Shown: piece by piece, positions 6,893-17,826 of the stretch
How positions within the stretch are numbered: the stretch's first letter is position 1
Layout of the letters: each line of letters opens with the position of its first letter
The notes under the pieces: model-generated
What the model saw: the letters and a program-made list of their open reading frames with translations, nothing else
The model's database searches: none
Told to the model about the DNA's origin: nothing
Assembly (NCBI GenBank): GCA_903828515.1
Contig: CAIKMD010000006.1
Coordinates: forward strand, 682,001-746,000
DNA: 64,000 nucleotides
DNA from: an uncultured Rhodospirillales bacterium
GTDB lineage: Bacteria; Pseudomonadota; Alphaproteobacteria; ATCC43930; CGMCC-115725
Direction: 5' to 3'
Program-made: the position numbers and the translations under genes

Positions 6893-7924
6893 ATGAAGAT
6901 GACCGCAGCGATCAAGCACCGCTCTTTTTTCCGCGCGACCCTGCCGGCGGGCCTGATCGCCCTTCTCGGATGGATCGCGCCGGCCAGCGCCGAGATGGAA
7001 AAGACCAGCCTCGCGCAAACCCCGGCGATTATCCCGTTCCTGGCCGCCTATATCGCGGAAGACGCGAATATCTGGCGCGACAATGATCTCGACGTCAAAG
7101 TCGTCAACCTTGATGGCGTCGCCACGGTGAACGCCGTTATCGCCGGGTCGGTCGATTTTGCTCTTTCGTCGAGCGCGGCTTTGACGCGCGCGGCAGCGCA
7201 CGGCCAAAGGCTGTTGGCGCTGGCCTCGATCAACAATCAAAGCGGACAGGTCACGGTCATCCGCAAGGAGTTCGCGGATGCCGCGCATTTCGATCCGACC
7301 GCGCCTTTGGCTGTTCGCGCGAAAGTGCTCAAGGGGCGGATCGTCTCGGGTGGCAGCGTCGGTTCGGTTGCGGACGTCTTTCTTAAGTCTGTCGCGCGGG
7401 CAGGCGGTCTCGATCAGAACGACTATACGAATCCGCCGCTCAGCGCGTCCGATCTGTTGGGCGCCTTTTCGCGTCGCGCCGTCGACGGATTTTCCTACAG
7501 CCTGCCTTACCCACAACAAGCAGCCGCCGAGGGAACGGCCGTCGTCGTTGCCGACGGGACCAAGGGTGAACTCAAGGAGTTCCTGCCGCTCGCTGCCGGT
7601 CTCGTGCTCACCCGCCCCGACGTGTGCACACAGCACCGCTCGATGTGCGAGAAGATGGGCCATTCGTTTCTGGTGGCGACGAAATTTCTCATGGAACGCC
7701 AAGACGATGCTCTTGCGATCTTGAAGAAGCGCTTTGCGACGGTGAACGATGCCGTCCTTAAAAGCGCCTTCGAGGCCGTCATCCGGATAACCCAATCGCC
7801 GCCGACCATTTCGTTGGTCGCCTTGGAAAACGGCGATCACATGAATGCCGAGGCGGGATTCCTGAAGCCCGAGGACAAGGTTGCGTCTTATGACGGCCTC
7901 TTCACCAACGAGTTCCTCCGCTGA
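6893..7924 (+). CDS. NMT1/THI5-like solute-binding protein
   Basis: A 343-residue exported protein of the SsuA/THI5-like group. A long signal peptide of about 34 residues ends ASA-EM, and a strong GGGGGG-type ribosome-binding site precedes the ATG at 6893 (an in-frame ATG at 6899 is an alternative). The first lobe shows IIPFLAAYIAEDANIWRD, VNLDGVATVNAVIAGSVDFA and the typical AALTRAAAHGQRLL helix; the second lobe keeps DLLGAFSRRAVDGFSYSLPY. It is the third exported binding protein in this cluster and again has no transport partner beside it. The ligand is unknown. Confidence 0.85.
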   Translation: MKMTAAIKHRSFFRATLPAGLIALLGWIAPASAEMEKTSLAQTPAIIPFLAAYIAEDANIWRDNDLDVKVVNLDGVATVNAVIAGSVDFALSSSAALTRAAAHGQRLLALASINNQSGQVTVIRKEFADAAHFDPTAPLAVRAKVLKGRIVSGGSVGSVADVFLKSVARAGGLDQNDYTNPPLSASDLLGAFSRRAVDGFSYSLPYPQQAAAEGTAVVVADGTKGELKEFLPLAAGLVLTRPDVCTQHRSMCEKMGHSFLVATKFLMERQDDALAILKKRFATVNDAVLKSAFEAVIRITQSPPTISLVALENGDHMNAEAGFLKPEDKVASYDGLFTNEFLR

Positions 7925-12663: not shown

Positions 12664-13533
12664 ATGACCGATACAGCTTACGTGCCGCCGAAGGTCTGGA
12701 CCCATAAGCCCGATGGCGGGCGATACGCCGCCACCAACCGGCCGATCGCCGGCGCGACCCAGGAGAAAGAACTGCCGGTCGGCCGCCACCCGCTGCAGCT
12801 TTATTCGCTGGCGACGCCCAACGGCGTGAAGGTCACCATCATGCTGGAAGAGCTTCTGGCGCTTGGTCATCGTGGCGCCGAATACGACGCCTGGCCGATC
12901 AAGATCAACGAGGGCGATCAGTTCGGCAGCGGCTTCGTCGCCGTCAATCCGAATTCCAAGATCCCCGCGCTGCTCGACCGTTCCGAATCCAAACCGGTCC
13001 GCGTGTTCGAATCCGGTTCGATCCTCGTCTATCTCGCCGAGAAATTCGGCGCCTTGCTGCCGACCGAGCGCGCGGCGCGCGCCGAATGCCTGTCCTGGCT
13101 CTTCTGGCAGATGGGCAGCACGCCTTATGTCGGCGGCGGCTTCGGCCATTTCTATGCTTACGCGCAGGAAAAAATCGAATATGCGATCAACCGCTTCGCC
13201 ATGGAGACGAAGCGTCAGCTCGACGTACTCGATCGTCGCCTGGCGGAAAGCGAATATGTCGCCGGGCCCCAGTATACGATCGCCGACATCGCGATTTGGC
13301 CGTGGTATGGCGGCCTCGCGCAGTTCAACCAATATGGCGGCGGCGAATTTCTGTCGGTGCAGGATTACAAGAACCTGCAGCGCTGGACGACGCAGGTCGG
13401 TCAACGCCTGGCGGTGAAACGCGGCCGCAAGGTCAATCGCCTGAGCGGCGACCCCGCCGATCAATTACACGAGCGGCACGACGCGAGCGACTTCGACACA
13501 AAGACGCAGGATAAACTCGCCGCGAAGAGCTGA
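12664..13533 (+). CDS. yghU: YghU-like nu-class glutathione S-transferase
   Basis: A 289-residue GST-fold protein of the YghU/nu class, whose E. coli member has disulfide-bond reductase activity with glutathione. The extended N-terminal arm (YVPPKVWTHKPDGGRYAATN) before the thioredoxin domain is diagnostic; the thioredoxin domain begins at HPLQLYSLATPNGVKV and has the cis-Pro loop NPNSKIPALLD. The helical domain ends with YTIADIAIWPWYGG. The ATG at 12664 is preferred over the one at 12652 because GAGGGAA lies at the right distance before it. It stands alone between the pqi operon and a repeat-rich gap. Confidence 0.9.
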   Translation: MTDTAYVPPKVWTHKPDGGRYAATNRPIAGATQEKELPVGRHPLQLYSLATPNGVKVTIMLEELLALGHRGAEYDAWPIKINEGDQFGSGFVAVNPNSKIPALLDRSESKPVRVFESGSILVYLAEKFGALLPTERAARAECLSWLFWQMGSTPYVGGGFGHFYAYAQEKIEYAINRFAMETKRQLDVLDRRLAESEYVAGPQYTIADIAIWPWYGGLAQFNQYGGGEFLSVQDYKNLQRWTTQVGQRLAVKRGRKVNRLSGDPADQLHERHDASDFDTKTQDKLAAKS

Positions 13534-13577
13534 CGGCGTGGTTGCTCGGCGCGATACCCTATCAATTCCCTCCCCCC

Positions 13578-13718
13578 CTTGAGGGGGAGGGTTAGGGTGG
13601 GGGGTACGACCCCCACGCTCGTGTAAGAATTGCGAAAATCCTCGACCGATGCCGATCGGCGCCTGCATCGTGAGGATCGATGGCGCGCTCCCCCCACCCT
13701 AGCCCTCCCCCTCAAGGG
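13578..13718. repeat. Palindromic repeat C (CCCTCCCCCTCAAGGGG family), IS target
   Basis: Two long inverted arms, 13578-13606 and 13690-13718, read as reverse complements (TTGAGGGGGAGGG and GGTTAGGGTGGGGGG with their complements) around an 85-nt loop. Fragments of the same family lie at 16912-16931 and 27430-27453. The transposon at 13731 is inserted directly beside the right arm, and the sequence on the other side of the transposon (CCCCCCTCAAGGGGGGAGGG) belongs to the same repeat type. The 13534-13785 gap holds nothing else that I can see. Confidence 0.8.
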
Positions 13719-13785
13719 GAGTATGATATTTGACAAACCCTAGACTATTAGTGGCATATGTTGGCTCCGGCCATACTGGGGGCAT

Positions 13786-14334
13786 ATGCGCGTTAGCGAA
13801 ACCATCCGAAAAGCGATGCCGTGGGTCGAGCCTTTGCTCGACTTCTTCGATTGGAAGAAGCGCGTCATTACCGTTGTTTTCGCGCTGGTTGTTTTTGGTT
13901 GGTCGTTCGTGAATGGCCTTCCTTGGCCGGTCATCATCGTAATTGCCTTCGCGATGATGGTAGTGAGCGCCTATGCGCTCGTGCTGCCCGGCTTAGTTAG
14001 GCTTGTAAATGTCGGATACCAGGCAGCCCCGAACACCGGCATATGGCGGCACAAGAAGAAGTTTCTTTTATGCCAAGGCGCGTGCCTTTTGGCGAACACG
14101 GTTCCGGTCTATCTGGAAAGTGAAATGAGCCCCGATGCTCACGCTTGGCTAGTGCAGTTTTATGATGCAGTTAATTCCAAGGAGATCGAATTCGTTCACA
14201 GCGCTGATGACAATCGGGACCACTATTTTGGTGGCTCCTATCATCCCCACACTCGGACGGAAATAACGAAGGAAACGCTGATAAAGTTTTGCCGGGTACG
14301 CGACAGAAACCCGGAGTTCTTGGCGGACGCCTAA
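13786..14334 (+). CDS. Hypothetical membrane protein, transposon passenger
   Basis: A 182-residue protein I do not recognise. Residues 25-45 (ITVVFALVVFGWSFVNG) and 48-70 (PWPVIIVIAFAMMVVSAYAL) form two membrane helices separated by a short turn. The following C-terminal domain of about 110 residues is soluble, with a conserved-looking IWRHKKKFLLCQGACLLAN segment and a His/Arg-rich end (YHPHTRTEITKETLIKF). It begins 45 nt inside the left end of the IS1595-type element, faces inward, and has lower GC than the flanking chromosome, so it is cargo. Function is unknown. Confidence 0.65.
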   Translation: MRVSETIRKAMPWVEPLLDFFDWKKRVITVVFALVVFGWSFVNGLPWPVIIVIAFAMMVVSAYALVLPGLVRLVNVGYQAAPNTGIWRHKKKFLLCQGACLLANTVPVYLESEMSPDAHAWLVQFYDAVNSKEIEFVHSADDNRDHYFGGSYHPHTRTEITKETLIKFCRVRDRNPEFLADA

Positions 14335-14378
14335 AATTAGGCCTCTTTAATCGCTTCCTCGGCCAGCCATCCCACGGA

Positions 14379-14576
14379 CTATTGGCGGGGAGATGGCGGG
14401 TTGAGAAACCAAAGGATTGCCGCGCCGACAATAAATATTGCGCCGACGATTTCGCCCTCGCCGGCAGTTACCAAAGCGCGCGTTGTAAATATCCCTGCAT
14501 AACCGGGCCAATACCAACTACAGACCCCAGCGCACGCAAAACCTATTGCGATGCTCTTATGCATTTGCCATCTCAT
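14379..14576 (-). CDS. Small two-helix membrane protein, transposon passenger
   Basis: A 65-residue protein with two hydrophobic stretches (IAIGFACAGVCSWYWPGYAG and EIVGAIFIVGAAILWFL) ending in PPSPRQ. Its ATG at 14576 overlaps the stop of the 50-residue gene upstream (ATGA), strong evidence that both are translated together; a second Met at residue 5 is a less likely start. It lies in the transposon between the 182-residue gene and the DUF3800 gene. Codon composition is AT-richer than the chromosome. Function is unknown. Confidence 0.55.
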   Translation of the reverse strand: MRWQMHKSIAIGFACAGVCSWYWPGYAGIFTTRALVTAGEGEIVGAIFIVGAAILWFLNPPSPRQ

Positions 14577-14725
14577 TTGGCTTTAGCTTTCGGCTTCGCT
14601 TTCGCGACTTTCCCTAGCCGCTTCTCAAACCGCTCTTTGTCGTCGTCGCATTCAAGCTGGCGAGCGGCTTCGATGAAGCGATCGCGTTGTGATAACTCGC
14701 GTTTTTCGGGACTCTTTCGTGGCAT
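14573..14725 (-). CDS. Small basic/acidic 50-residue protein, transposon passenger
   Basis: A 50-codon gene starting MPRKSPEKRELSQRDRF and ending in a Lys/Ala-rich tail (KVAKAKPKAKAK). It is charged and helical, without hydrophobic segments. From memory, similar SQRDRFIEAAR-containing small proteins recur beside DUF3800 genes and IS1595 elements in alphaproteobacteria; I cannot verify this here. It is coupled by ATGA to the membrane protein gene downstream and diverges from the DUF3800 gene, whose ATG is only 19 nt away on the other strand, so their 5' regions overlap. Function is unknown. Confidence 0.6.
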   Translation of the reverse strand: MPRKSPEKRELSQRDRFIEAARQLECDDDKERFEKRLGKVAKAKPKAKAK

Positions 14726-14744
14726 TGCGCTATCCATAAGGGCG

Positions 14745-15590
14745 ATGTCCTACGGTTATATAGCATATATCGACGAATCCGGTGATGACGGATTGCGTTC
14801 AAATTTACGGCCAGACGCGCCCCAGGGGGCGTCTGAGTGGATGGTCATTACGGCCGTGGTGGTCCGCGTTGATACCGTAGACAGTCGGACGGTCGAATGG
14901 ACACGAGAGATCATCCGCGATCTAGGCCAGCATCAAACAACGCATCTGCATTTTCACAAACTCAAGGAAGATAAGAAACGGCAAGTTTGCCGTGCCATTG
15001 CTGCGTTGCCCTTGCGCTGTTTCGTAGTTCTCTCTCACAAGCGGAACATGCTGCATCATCGAAATTTGCGGGCAGAACGCGCGACGGTGAATAGAACCGC
15101 TTGGTTCTTTTGCTGGCTTTCGAGGCTCCTATTGGAAAGGGTAACGGCCTACTGCCATCAGCGCACTTTTAGGGACTACGGGGAATGTCGGAAAATCCGC
15201 GTAGAATTTTCTGAACGAGGCGGCGTCAAGATTGATGATGTAAAAAATTACTATCGCTATTTAAGCGGGCAAAATGATCTCGGAATGATGCATCTGAACA
15301 ATTTCAATCTAGCTTGGCCAGTCGTTGATACCGAGCAAATGTTCATCTATCCGAACCGGATGCGTGCTGGCTTGCAACTCGCCGACTGCGTTTCAAGTTC
15401 GTTTTTCCAAGCTGTTGAGCGAACGCCAGCCGGAATCGTCCGGCCAGAATCTGCGAAGTTGCTGCTCAATTCCGTTTGCAGCAGAGCAAACCGGCGCTAC
15501 GGATTTGGATTAAAGGTTATGCCGACTTGGATACCTTCGCGACTGCCCGAGAATCAGTGCGAGATAATCGACTTCTACAGAAATGCGTAG
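14745..15590 (+). CDS. DUF3800 protein, transposon passenger
   Basis: A 281-residue DUF3800 protein. The family hallmark YIDESGD occurs at residues 8-14, followed by the strand EWMVITAVVVRV; the second acidic cluster is in the late LQLADCVSSSFF helix. The fold is thought to be RNase H-like, so a nuclease role on nucleic acid is plausible but not demonstrated. AAGGG precedes the ATG. It is a frequent passenger in mobile elements and here lies inside the IS1595-type transposon, diverging from the two small genes. The 270 nt after it (15591-15860) hold no gene or clear hairpin. Confidence 0.8.
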   Translation: MSYGYIAYIDESGDDGLRSNLRPDAPQGASEWMVITAVVVRVDTVDSRTVEWTREIIRDLGQHQTTHLHFHKLKEDKKRQVCRAIAALPLRCFVVLSHKRNMLHHRNLRAERATVNRTAWFFCWLSRLLLERVTAYCHQRTFRDYGECRKIRVEFSERGGVKIDDVKNYYRYLSGQNDLGMMHLNNFNLAWPVVDTEQMFIYPNRMRAGLQLADCVSSSFFQAVERTPAGIVRPESAKLLLNSVCSRANRRYGFGLKVMPTWIPSRLPENQCEIIDFYRNA

Positions 15591-15860
15591 GAAGGCGGCG
15601 AGCCCCCGGACCCTATTTCCATCGGCGGTGTCCTAGCCTGCTCACAGAGCTGGCATCCGATTCGACTGCCACGTTGCCGTGACAAGGGCACTCCGGCGTT
15701 GCTCGCCATTTTTAAGATACAAGATTCTGTCTGCTGAATCAATGACTTAGTAAGATTCTGAATTCATTCGTCAATTCGCTTTGGAAATTGGAAATCGAAC
15801 GTTAGTTGCCCAGCCGCTTCCAATTTCTCGCGTGTAGAAAATGATCGGTGCTCAATCGGC

Positions 15861-16847
15861 CTACGCTTCGGCTTCTCCGCTATCAGTGGCGCGATAGGTC
15901 AGGCGTTTTCCAACGATACCTTTCAGCGCCTTTGTCGTGCGTTCAGCATCACCCACACCAAGCGCCATGCGCTCGTTGTAGCGAAAATCAAACTCGGCGA
16001 GATAGCGCTTCAAGTGCTGCTGCGAAACGTGGTGATAGGTCCCGACAATGCCGCGCTTGAGGACACTGAAATAGCCCTCGATCGTGTTGGTATGCGCCTC
16101 GCCGCGAACGTACTCGCCTATCCCATGGTTGACGGTCTGATGCGCGAAGTCTTTGCCCATGTGGCGATACTGGCCTGCGTCGTCCGTCATGAGATTCGTC
16201 TTGGCGTCGATCTGGGCAACGAGGATCGGACGAAGCGTTGCGGCGGTCACCGCCGGGACGTGATGGGACCGGACGCGACCGCCGCGCTCGACTAGGGAGA
16301 AGGCAATCTCTTTGCCTGTGCCGCCCAGATTTCGTTTGTCGCGCTTGTGCGCGTGCTTGTTCTTTTCCTTGCCGCCGATGAAGGTCTCGTCGGCTTCAAC
16401 CGTCTTGCCTTGGCCGCCCATCTGGCCGGGGAACTTCCCTTCGCGCATAGCCTCGCGCAAACGATGGCCCATGAACCAAGCGGTTTTGAGCGTCACACCT
16501 AACGTGCGATGCAACTGGTTGGCGCTCACGCCCTTCTTGCTGCTGCACATAAGGTGCGCGGCTTGAAACCAGATATGCAGCGGGACCGGGCTATCCTCGA
16601 ATACCGTCCCTTTGCGAACGGTGAACTGGCCGCGACAGGCGTAGCACTTGCGGAGGCCATAAACCGGCTTGCCCTTGGGGTGTGCTTGGCTGGGCTTCGT
16701 GCGCTGTCCGGCGAGGCGTCCGATCTTGGCAGCGTCGGCGTTGCCGCAATGCGGGCAGGTCGGGCCATTCGGCCAGACGATCCGCTCTAGGGCTTCAAAA
16801 GCCGCCGCTTCATCGTGAAAGTAGGGCTCGGAAAGTACGCTCGCCAT
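15861..16847 (-). CDS. IS1595-family (ISXO2-like) transposase
   Basis: A 328-residue transposase. The N-terminal zinc ribbon is CPHC (residues 31-34) and CYAC (68-71), followed by a helix-turn-helix-like region (KKGVSANQLHRTLGVTLKTAW). The ISXO2-like catalytic domain carries Asp153 in EADETFIGG, Asp222 in TDDAGQY and the HTNTIEGYFSVLKRG block (Asn254, Glu257) expected for this family. All motifs are intact, so it may be active. The ATG at 16847 follows a GAGG ribosome-binding site; an in-frame GTG at 16853 is less likely. Confidence 0.92.
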   Translation of the reverse strand: MASVLSEPYFHDEAAAFEALERIVWPNGPTCPHCGNADAAKIGRLAGQRTKPSQAHPKGKPVYGLRKCYACRGQFTVRKGTVFEDSPVPLHIWFQAAHLMCSSKKGVSANQLHRTLGVTLKTAWFMGHRLREAMREGKFPGQMGGQGKTVEADETFIGGKEKNKHAHKRDKRNLGGTGKEIAFSLVERGGRVRSHHVPAVTAATLRPILVAQIDAKTNLMTDDAGQYRHMGKDFAHQTVNHGIGEYVRGEAHTNTIEGYFSVLKRGIVGTYHHVSQQHLKRYLAEFDFRYNERMALGVGDAERTTKALKGIVGKRLTYRATDSGEAEA

Positions 16848-16872
16848 GACCACACCTCGTAAATACCCTTAT

Positions 16873-16901
16873 AAAATAGGGTTTGTGTGTGGGTTTGTCA
16901 A
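16873..16901 (-). promoter_or_regulatory. Promoter of the transposase, embedded in the transposon end
   Basis: On the minus strand TTGACA (16896-16901) and TATTTT (16873-16878) are separated by 17 nt. The -35 box lies in the terminal inverted repeat with its first base in the flanking direct repeat, so full promoter strength would depend on the insertion site. The transposase ATG is about 26 nt downstream of the -10 box. Confidence 0.6.
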
Positions 16902-16963
16902 GTATGATATTCCCCCCTCAAGGGGGGAGGGAATTTCAGCGTGGCTTTAAGAGCACCGGCGTC

Positions 16964-16998
16964 AGACCGGTTTCCCCTGCCACAACGTGTCGCAATCG
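16964..16998 (-). pseudogene. Fossil C-terminal tail of an M24-like gene
   Basis: Read on the minus strand, this stretch encodes C-D-T-L-W-Q-G-K-P-V-stop, matching the last residues C-D-V-L-W-Q-G-K-P-A-stop of the M24-like gene ending at 17847. By eye 28 of the last 33 bases agree. It lies 3' of the GST gene, as the intact tail lies 5' of it, so it looks like the remnant of a tandem duplication of a GST/M24 unit. Confidence 0.6.
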
Positions 16999-17004
16999 TT
17001 CTCC

Positions 17005-17826
17005 CTACGCGGTCGCCTTCGGCGAGCGCCGGTATTCGGCAAGCCGGTCGGCGACGCGCGCGCGAATGGCGCCGCCCGAACTCTTCATCGCTTCGAAATC
17101 GGCGGCAGGCACCTTCTCGGGGATCGAGGCGATGAAGCTCGGCAAGGTCTGCGCCCGTCCCCACCATTCGCGCGTCGCCGGACGGTCTTCGATCCAGACG
17201 TCGAGCAGATCGAGATAGGCCATGCGGGCGACGAACGGCATCATGTTGATGTCGGCAAGGCTGAGTTGCGCGCCGATCAGCCACGGACCACCGGCCTTCA
17301 AATCCTTCTCCATCTTCGCGAAGGCCATCTCGAACGCGCCGATGCCCTGGAAGACATAAGGGCTGTCGACGCCCTCCTCATAAGTCGAGATCAGCCGCGC
17401 GCGCTTGATCGGATCGCCCACGTTCTGAAAGCGGCCCTGACGTTGCTCTTCGGTCATCCCGCGCATGCGCTCGCGAAACATCGCCGAGAAGCTGAGTTCG
17501 CGCGTCGCCTCGAAGAGCTGCTCGTCGACCGCCTTGCTCCAGAGACGCATCCGGGCGCGCAAAAACGGATCCGGCGGCACGAGACGGAGGTCCGGAAAGC
17601 AATCGTCGATATATTCGCAGATCAGCGTCGATTCGATGACGATATTTCCGTCGTGATCGAGCGCGGGGACGACGCCCTTCGGATTGATCTTCAGATACTC
17701 AGGCGAGAATTGCTCGTTCCGGAAGAGATCGACGTTCTGCGTGACGTAGTCGATGCCCTTTTCGGCCAGCGTGATGAACACCTTCTGGGTACAGATCGAA
17801 TTGTAATAGCTGTAGACCTTGAGCAT
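17005..17826 (-). CDS. Glutathione S-transferase family protein
   Basis: A 273-residue GST: thioredoxin-like N-domain (MLKVYSYYNSICTQKVFITL, cis-Pro loop NPKGVVPALDHDG, and ES in NIVIESTLICEYID for glutathione contact) and an all-helical C-domain with LIGAQLSLADINMMPFVARM. The ATG at 17826 begins the first beta strand; a longer upstream reading overlaps the preceding gene and is discarded. It lies 20 nt after an M24-like gene in a three-gene minus-strand operon, which suggests work on a common xenobiotic or conjugate. Exact class and substrate are not clear. Confidence 0.88.
   Translation of the reverse strand: MLKVYSYYNSICTQKVFITLAEKGIDYVTQNVDLFRNEQFSPEYLKINPKGVVPALDHDGNIVIESTLICEYIDDCFPDLRLVPPDPFLRARMRLWSKAVDEQLFEATRELSFSAMFRERMRGMTEEQRQGRFQNVGDPIKRARLISTYEEGVDSPYVFQGIGAFEMAFAKMEKDLKAGGPWLIGAQLSLADINMMPFVARMAYLDLLDVWIEDRPATREWWGRAQTLPSFIASIPEKVPAADFEAMKSSGGAIRARVADRLAEYRRSPKATA

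Follow-up and report, generated by a model that had tools for sequence, protein, structure and literature searches.

An IS1595-family transposon carrying a DUF3800 gene and a convergent structured RNA in an uncultured Rhodospirillales bacterium

The IS1595 family reportedly received its primary description from Siguier et al. in 2009, and Weinberg is said to have described the DUF3800 RNAs in 2017. The family has an 8-bp target duplication, and the related Merlin elements have inverted repeats with GG at their start (PMC8101967); the term tIS applies to IS1595-family transposons with passenger genes, such as the mobilizable MTnSag1 and tISCpe8, which carry lincomycin resistance (PMC5704250). 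DUF3800 is placed as an accessory in some VI-F and V-A2 CRISPR loci (PMC12669027), and the domain is reported to adopt the RNase H fold, its active site being rearranged (PMC10910872); additional background comes from PMC7371123, PMC11092175, PMC11701678 and PMC7657543. Here we describe an IS1595-family transposon that carries a DUF3800 gene and a structured RNA, found in a 64,000-nucleotide stretch (the window) of contig CAIKMD010000006.1 from an uncultured Rhodospirillales bacterium. The literature searched, which omits ISfinder and most subscription journals, links neither DUF3800 nor its RNA to IS1595 transposons, and a prior record is possible; the same literature yielded no tested function for the catalogued DUF3800 genes or RNAs.

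Like the cited tIS elements, the window element has transposase domains, inverted repeats starting with GG, an 8-bp duplication and passenger genes. It differs from them in carrying a DUF3800–RNA module and a member of a 54-residue protein family, not lincomycin resistance. The element is ordinary as a kind of transposon and unusual in its cargo. With moderate confidence, we read its sequence as that of a complete IS1595 transposon mobilizing a two-part module, a DUF3800 protein of predicted RNase HII-like fold and its structured RNA. The original prediction for this stretch had proposed an IS1595-type transposon with cargo, inserted in a palindromic repeat; the kind and location hold, and the ends (13720–16911) move to those in Table 1. 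That prediction also listed the cargo as separate genes and missed the RNA, which we join with DUF3800 in one module.

The transposon, its ends and its target

The window holds what reads as a complete, intact IS1595-family transposon, present as a single copy in its genome. Its transposase matches PF12762 (ISXO2-like DDE domain, 1.2e-40), PF12760 (N-terminal zinc ribbon, 8.4e-11) and NF033547 (1.8e-60; 204.5 bits against a cut-off of 75). The intact transposase, DUF3800, two overlapping small genes and 182-residue frame had all been placed correctly before, as open reading frames and Pfam matches confirm.

Table 1. Positions of the features of the element, numbered from the first letter of the window
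Feature	Position	Strand	Basis or remark
IS1595-family transposon, whole, 3198 bp	13717..16914	.	inverted repeats and 8-bp duplication, compared with other elements; single copy
Left target duplication CCCTCAAG	13709..13716	+	register may slide by one base
Right target duplication CCCTCAAG	16915..16922	+	
Left terminal inverted repeat GGGAGTATGATATTTGACAAACCC, 24 bp	13717..13740	+	same form in other elements
Right terminal inverted repeat, 24 bp	16891..16914	-	21/24 to left
182-residue frame, probable membrane protein	13786..14334	+	judged from hydrophobic N-terminal part
65-residue small frame	14379..14576	-	4-bp overlap with 54-residue gene
54-residue small protein	14573..14737	-	family linked to IS1595 transposases
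DUF3800 gene, 281 residues, predicted RNase HII-like fold	14745..15590	+	PF12686, model, fold search
Structured noncoding RNA, DUF3800-VII type, ~117 nt	15592..15707	-	RF02967, covariation; convergent with DUF3800
-10 box TATCTT of RNA promoter	15714..15719	-	by consensus
-35 box TTGATT of RNA promoter, 17-base spacer	15737..15742	-	by consensus
IS1595 (ISXO2-like) transposase	15861..16853	-	PF12762, PF12760, NF033547; ATG at 16847 alternative start

We defined the ends, which we regard as firm, by scoring paired inverted repeats with flanking direct repeats in 20 longer regions, taken after a search of 99 genomes that gave a match in 29. Perfect 8-bp duplications flank the window element and six others (L034, L036, L038, L048, L049 and L050), and perfect flanking repeats of 9 and 10 bp were found at L037 and L043, respectively. 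Duplications are imperfect at L042 and L046; at L035, L040, L044 and L045 the inverted repeats are good and a clean duplication is missing, and the scoring gave no convincing inverted-repeat pair for L032, L039, L041, L047 and L051. In the elements of relatives and named genomes, the inverted repeats are 24 bp long and resemble GGCGATTATATACTTGACAAACCC, and the duplications are mostly of 8 bp; the resolvable elements share ends that start GGC, GGG or GGA and continue into a TTGAC-like sequence. In the window, the two repeats (GGGAGTATGATATTTGACAAACCC and GGGAATATCATACTTGACAAACCC) begin with GG (GGG...CCC), as expected for the family, and are bordered on both sides by CCCTCAAG, a duplication of the same length as in the relatives. 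Its register could slide by one base, because the target has G and C runs. In the L048 element (G070:C1), the transposase frame is, by reading, interrupted by a second transposase-like frame, with another in the cargo.

The sequences TGACAAACCC and GGGTTTGTCA, previously taken as the ends, are present where they had been placed, and the difference in composition seen before is borne out (GC 0.54 in the element against 0.59 for the element with 1.5-kb flanks). Two copies of the 11-mer AGTATGATATT are likewise present (0.11 expected, with one mismatch allowed). This 11-mer is the nearly self-complementary inner part of both inverted repeats and therefore reads as a direct repeat; it is not the target duplication, and aligning many ends gives mostly 8 bp, not 11 bp.

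Joining the flanks across the 8-bp duplication gives the 23-mer CCCTCCCCCTCAAGGGGGGAGGG, which has 35 other exact copies in the genome and 21 more within two mismatches; the target reads as a palindrome of the REP (repetitive extragenic palindromic) kind. The earlier claim that the joined flanks restore a repeat is upheld with this duplication and fails with the earlier ends, whose implied left junction (CCCCTCAAGGGG, 0–4 bases, AGTATGAT) matches the genome once, at the site itself. CCCTCCCCCTCAAGGGGGGAGGG-like copies lie in the window at 13585, 13709, 16915 and 27440 and at 56 places in the genome overall, several of them as inverted pairs about 115–130 bp apart. Matches to Rfam mir-629 and mir-1224 fall on such an inverted pair (13581–13713), far below their cut-offs, and look spurious. 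The proposed check for an empty site is thus answered in part: paralogous empty copies of the target repeat exist, and no orthologous empty site was found in six relatives. Among these six, the left-flank gene has a clear ortholog (78%) only in G010, where the match stops at the gene end. The other elements' ends and the empty-site counts rule out the 11-mer as a target duplication.

Inverted repeats may be a preferred target more widely. L038, from another genus of the same family, has the same duplication as the window in the same kind of repeat, and L036, from another family, is inserted in a similar repeat. Among 21 elements with clean duplications (four with imperfect duplications or tandem insertion being omitted), six sites have at least six of eight arm pairs, against 4.6% of control positions (P 3e-4), which gives weak, post hoc support to such a preference; many other elements' duplications are A/T-rich.

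The DUF3800 protein and its convergent RNA

The window DUF3800 protein matches PF12686 at 4.9e-12 (47.2 bits against a curated cut-off of 21), as do all 81 aligned DUF3800 sequences at E ≤ 0.001, and PF12686 is the only Pfam family above cut-off, with no TnpB or IscB domain. Counting from the residue after the start methionine, Asp9, Glu10, Gly12, Asp13, His68, Lys98, Glu130, Tyr168 and Asp213 are invariant in the 81 sequences. An AlphaFold2 model built on this alignment has a mean predicted local distance difference test score of 94.3, and in structure it comes closest to RNase HII, H2 and HIII, led by 1eke (Z 12.0 over 173 residues, 3.8 Å), which is also the top Foldseek entry (E 7.6e-4). 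The first 18 rows of the fold search are of this kind, counting as RNase HII row 17, which is listed under a repair complex. Argonaute entries appear lower, with Z about 7, which the tool calls a common value, and we do not use them as evidence of kinship. The N-terminal motif of RNase HII is D-E-A/S-G. DUF3800 shares this motif and the predicted fold with RNase HII; the best fold-search rows are only 9–14% identical to DUF3800, and PMC10910872 reports the active site of the domain as rearranged. By sequence, no solved DUF3800 structure was found: a profile search of PDB sequences gave ten matches at E ≤ 1, the best at 0.026, none of them an RNase H. Named relatives of the protein are mostly from Alphaproteobacteria; relatives also occur in two Cupriavidus plasmid records (30% identical) and, among GenBank phages, in one Rhizobium phage (27%).

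Convergent with this gene stands a structured RNA. An Rfam scan of positions 13500–17100 gave RF02967 (DUF3800-VII RNA) with 36.0 bits against a gathering cut-off of 36.2 (E 1.1e-4), and the same family scores above cut-off in three of the five DUF3800 relatives in genomes of the class (55.4, 40.8 and 37.5 bits), convergent at the stop codon. The window RNA appears to be of the same type as RF02967 and DUF3800-VIII RNA (RF03075), which also adjoin DUF3800 genes, and departs from RF02967 in its longer interior, with 38 inserted nucleotides where the model has 7. Because RF02967 with strict filters found one genome among 385 and missed the window's own copy, we built a model of our own, R1, from 25 RNAs chosen by a motif at the gene's 3′ end. 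R1 has only nine pairs and finds the window RNA, one of its training members, at 15589–15711 with 80.7 bits. Across 1.13 Mb (the window, the viral contig L064 and 80 named loci) it has 54 matches at E ≤ 1. Of these, 53 run opposite to DUF3800 at the 3′ end of the gene, with that in L069 about 240 bp farther on; the exception is L131:14519. At E ≤ 0.01 it finds the RNA in 43 of the 80 named loci, 22 of them training members and 21 outside the training set. It also matches in 30 of 45 DUF3800 loci on viral contigs. Each of these matches is on the strand opposite to DUF3800 and beyond the gene: 29 follow it directly, and that in L193 comes about 1 kb after a partial match to DUF3800. Two of the loci repeat training members, L200 coinciding in place with L064 and L194 being identical to L106.

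Conservation and covariation of the RNA are firm. An outer stem of seven pairs, fully paired in 54 of 71 distinct RNAs, encloses conserved sequence and further stems. In the 25 aligned RNAs, 37 cells of the outer stem changed on both sides, against 14.0 in shuffles, and the covariation score was 0.480 in the true register and at most 0.139 in slid registers; L136, L140, L142 and L062, which pair one register off in the alignment, were kept and count as mostly unpaired. Equally firm is a sigma-70-like promoter signal upstream of the RNA on its strand, above the 95% shuffle level in 47 of 72 distinct cases, compared with 2 of 72 on the opposite strand, as scored with self-chosen weights and mononucleotide shuffles.

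Recurrence and exchange of the cassette

The recurrence of the cassette and the firm order of its genes were read from the best 80 of 209 DUF3800 relatives in a scan of named contigs. In 22 of the 80, DUF3800 is followed within about 350 bp by a convergent IS1595 transposase; 20 of these are near full length (that of L085 cut by the contig end, that of L090 split over two frames) and two (L126 and L129) are fragments, a distant transposase at L078 being left out of the count. The 54-residue gene, sought with a single query, stands upstream and divergent in 20 of these 22 loci (absent in L066 and L126) and in 2 of the 58 loci without an adjacent transposase (L069 and L088), so that the common order is 54-residue gene, DUF3800, RNA and transposase. 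R1 finds the RNA at E ≤ 0.01 in 15 of the 22 and 28 of the 58.

Inverted repeats with perfect 8-bp duplications are seen in 13 of the 22 loci (L066, L073, L074, L077, L084, L090, L098, L099, L119, L120, L121, L125 and L141) and in L064. Among the other nine, the inverted repeats of L108 and L122 are good and no clean duplication flanks them, while one or two repeat-like ends are present in L080, L085, L097, L107, L126 and L129. The proposed check for the same ends and cargo in other genomes has a positive outcome: similar 24-bp ends enclose the same cassette there. The smallest elements (L121, 2294 bp; L120, 2318; L084, 2338; L141, 2390; L074, 2405; L125, 2460) have room for little beyond the 54-residue gene, DUF3800, RNA and transposase; the DUF3800 frame of L141 is shortened to 172 residues. 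At L067, around 2655–2664, two IS1595 elements follow each other head to tail, separated by a single 8-bp sequence, and one has the DUF3800 cassette.

Phages or prophages seem to carry the cassette directly. L064 holds a 3028-bp element in the same order as that of the window, with the duplication CATATTCT, a weak match to the 54-residue protein (E 4e-4) and an RNA that is recognizable by alignment, though missed by Rfam; beside it lies, by reading, a tape-measure-like frame. In all, 45 viral contigs (L170–L214) encode DUF3800 relatives, six with a transposase or fragment and eight with a match to the 54-residue protein at E ≤ 0.001.

The cassette of DUF3800 and RNA is also found without a transposase, and the DUF3800 gene itself stands without an adjacent one in 58 of the named loci. 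Exchange of the cassette between elements is firm in the sequences compared. Between the window and L064, DUF3800 identity is 67% and transposase identity 49%; between the window and L098, the values are 34% and 68%, respectively, from which we conclude that the parts have been exchanged between transposon backbones; in the transposase tree, no starred set contains the window row. Seven pairs of related DUF3800 loci, one of each pair with and the other without a transposase, have only about 0.93–1.08 kb in common, a stretch that begins near the DUF3800 start and reaches the RNA promoter region. Some transposase-less loci may be decayed elements; a single repeat-like end is present in L081 (6002), L088 (670) and L101 (6520). 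A defence-island or tRNA-linked setting of the stand-alone copies was considered and rejected, as their neighbor families do not recur and ARAGORN places tRNA genes in only 9 of the 58 loci. In L060 (Zavarzinia; the same place as L102), Rfam gives a 109-base tRNA match just upstream of DUF3800 (7179–7287), where ARAGORN reported no tRNA in L102.

The remaining cargo divides into two kinds, as far as its sequences tell. The 54-residue gene appears to go with IS1595 transposases in general: a 25-member profile (motif SQ..KF..AARELE.D.DE..F...L.KIAK.KP), has 11 matches in 8 of 190 genomes, two of which (the window and G070) are themselves profile members. The two matches without a transposase nearby are G098:C42, which by reading adjoins a gene pair resembling the L036 cargo, and a second copy in the window's own genome (L164, G000:C2:363370-363513), around which 11 kb hold no IS1595 transposase or repeat-like ends. 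The 182-residue gene and, as far as seen, the 65-residue gene appear to be extras of the window element. The former has no relative in 38 other genomes of the family or in the plasmid collection, the latter no match among Pfam, PHROGs and NF-family profiles, and PHROGs gave no match for any of the four cargo proteins.

IS1595 elements of relatives carry varied small genes (L034, L036, L037, L040, L042–L046 and L048–L050), many without a family. Of 20 cargo frames searched against Pfam, seven were over cut-off, two had sub-cut-off matches only and 11 had none at E ≤ 0.01. The matches include PIN (1.2e-13), Cas2-like (1.4e-5), a second DUF3800 (3.2e-5, L043), DUF433 with PIN_10 (9e-12 and 1.3e-11, L044), HEPN (1.3e-4, L046) and dCTP deaminase-like (6.6e-31, L049), which suggests that IS1595 elements are a general carrier of conflict genes. 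The L043 DUF3800 has a DUF3800-VIII RNA (50.3 bits) in the same convergent layout. Two further type VIII places in the 385 genomes have a related DUF3800 and no IS1595 transposase in the roughly 3 kb of sequence examined; type VIII is therefore not generally tied to IS1595.

What the module may do

As a hypothesis for the function of the module, we propose that the RNA would be made from its own promoter, running towards the DUF3800 stop codon, and may bind the DUF3800 protein and control or cofactor its nuclease activity as a ribonucleoprotein. The mobile nuclease–RNA module probably serves maintenance or exclusion. More speculatively, it might be retained by stabilizing the element, as a toxin held in check by the RNA, or by excluding competing mobile DNA, while the transposase would move it by IS1595 transposition and the 54-residue protein might be an accessory of IS1595 elements. 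The original prediction had suggested a defence or maintenance module, which is plausible; the neighbors show no recurrent families, and none of the five element proteins matches PADLOC at E ≤ 1.

This last result, which leaves the cargo without a defence family, weighs against our reading, as do several others. Relatives of DUF3800 occur in only 5 of 384 other genomes of the class, so the type is rare. The window RNA scores 0.2 bit below the RF02967 cut-off, and its fold (−54 kcal/mol, z −2.09) is equalled by 6 of 200 shuffles. At E ≤ 0.01, R1 has no match in 37 of the 80 named loci, including the transposase loci L073, L074, L080, L090, L099, L108 and L141; L080, L090 and L099 have weak matches only. 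On the DUF3800 tree, the transposase label changes 18 times (at least 16 forced by well-supported branches) compared with 20.2–20.3 in shuffles, of which 52–66 of 500 are as low, so that the label appears hardly clustered and no single transposon lineage emerges. Among 105 mechanically picked neighbors of transposase-less copies, no Pfam family had more than two members (top 25 of 135 families), and PADLOC families likewise had at most two (top 25 of 94), with mad2 in two and the rest mostly methyltransferase models in single members. The whole argument, moreover, is built on sequence and predicted structure.

A toxin–antitoxin pair is a possible, though less favored, account, in which DUF3800 would act as a toxin with RNase activity that the convergent RNA neutralizes, either by binding or as antisense where the 3′ ends overlap, so that loss of the element is punished. 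The compact two-part unit, the promoter signal of the RNA, the shared cassette of about 1 kb, which starts shortly before DUF3800 and reaches the RNA promoter region, and the toxin-like PIN, PIN_10 with DUF433 and HEPN cargo of some other IS1595 elements would suit it. To our knowledge, however, convergent RNA antitoxins pair with small hydrophobic toxins, not with a nuclease-like protein of 281 residues, and a simple antisense role would not call for the structural conservation seen in the RNA.

We consider it rather unlikely that the protein is an RNA-guided or RNA-cofactored nuclease like TnpB or IscB with omega RNA, whose ribonucleoprotein would cleave nucleic acid in the element's favor. 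Omega RNAs extend to the end of their element and take the guide from the DNA beside it. The window element shares with these OMEGA systems a transposon-borne protein of predicted RNase H fold with a cognate structured RNA, and the Argonaute entries in the fold list could be counted on the same side; but its RNA is internal, between DUF3800 and the transposase, and cannot read flanking host DNA. Close relatives also lack a hypervariable, guide-like segment, the lowest 15-nt identity being 0.69 among six RNAs and 0.53 among the window RNA and its two nearest, and DUF3800 matches none of the Pfam families of those nucleases. CRISPR-associated DUF3800 likewise shares the domain and RNase H fold, whereas no Cas or TPR family matched the five element proteins in Pfam; CRISPR arrays were not searched for.

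Unlikelier still is a role for DUF3800, the RNA and the 54-residue protein in regulating or helping IS1595 transposition. Of the 11 matches to the 54-residue profile, 9 have a complete or partial IS1595 transposase no more than 1.5 kb away, which speaks for it; DUF3800, by contrast, lacks an adjacent transposase in 58 of the 80 named loci, has a transposase or fragment in only 6 of the 45 viral-contig loci, and was found only in L043 among the 14 elements of relatives whose frames were listed. We think it improbable that the RNA is a mere conserved terminator structure and DUF3800 an ordinary passenger. The outer stem does lie at the DUF3800 stop and is followed in the window by a T run on the DUF3800 strand, and counts of G-U and A-C pairs, 8 against 6, do little to decide the strand, which counts against our reading as well; the conserved sequence and stems within the outer stem, and the promoter signal on the opposite strand, argue otherwise. 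That the cargo merely lies between two unrelated repeats can be dismissed: the 11-bp direct repeat was indeed a coincidence within the inverted repeats, and like ends with perfect 8-bp duplications around the same cassette in other genomes contradict it.

More tentatively than the two-part module itself, we suggest a widespread class of mobile ribonucleoprotein nucleases, independent of CRISPR and OMEGA, in which an RNase HII-fold DUF3800 and its dedicated RNA might travel as a cassette of about 1 kb on IS1595 transposons and in phages and prophages of Alphaproteobacteria, acting against competing mobile DNA or for their own retention. The cassette is a minimal unit, one protein and one RNA with its promoter in about 1 kb, and it comes with a natural vehicle whose ends are exact. 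Should its two parts work jointly, an RNase HII-type fold would join the few RNA-associated nucleases that transposons carry. The exchange of the cassette, along with the PIN, HEPN and dCTP-deaminase-like cargo of other elements, would mark small IS1595 elements as carriers of conflict genes, and our findings suggest an unstudied RNA–protein system that is spreading on jumping genes.

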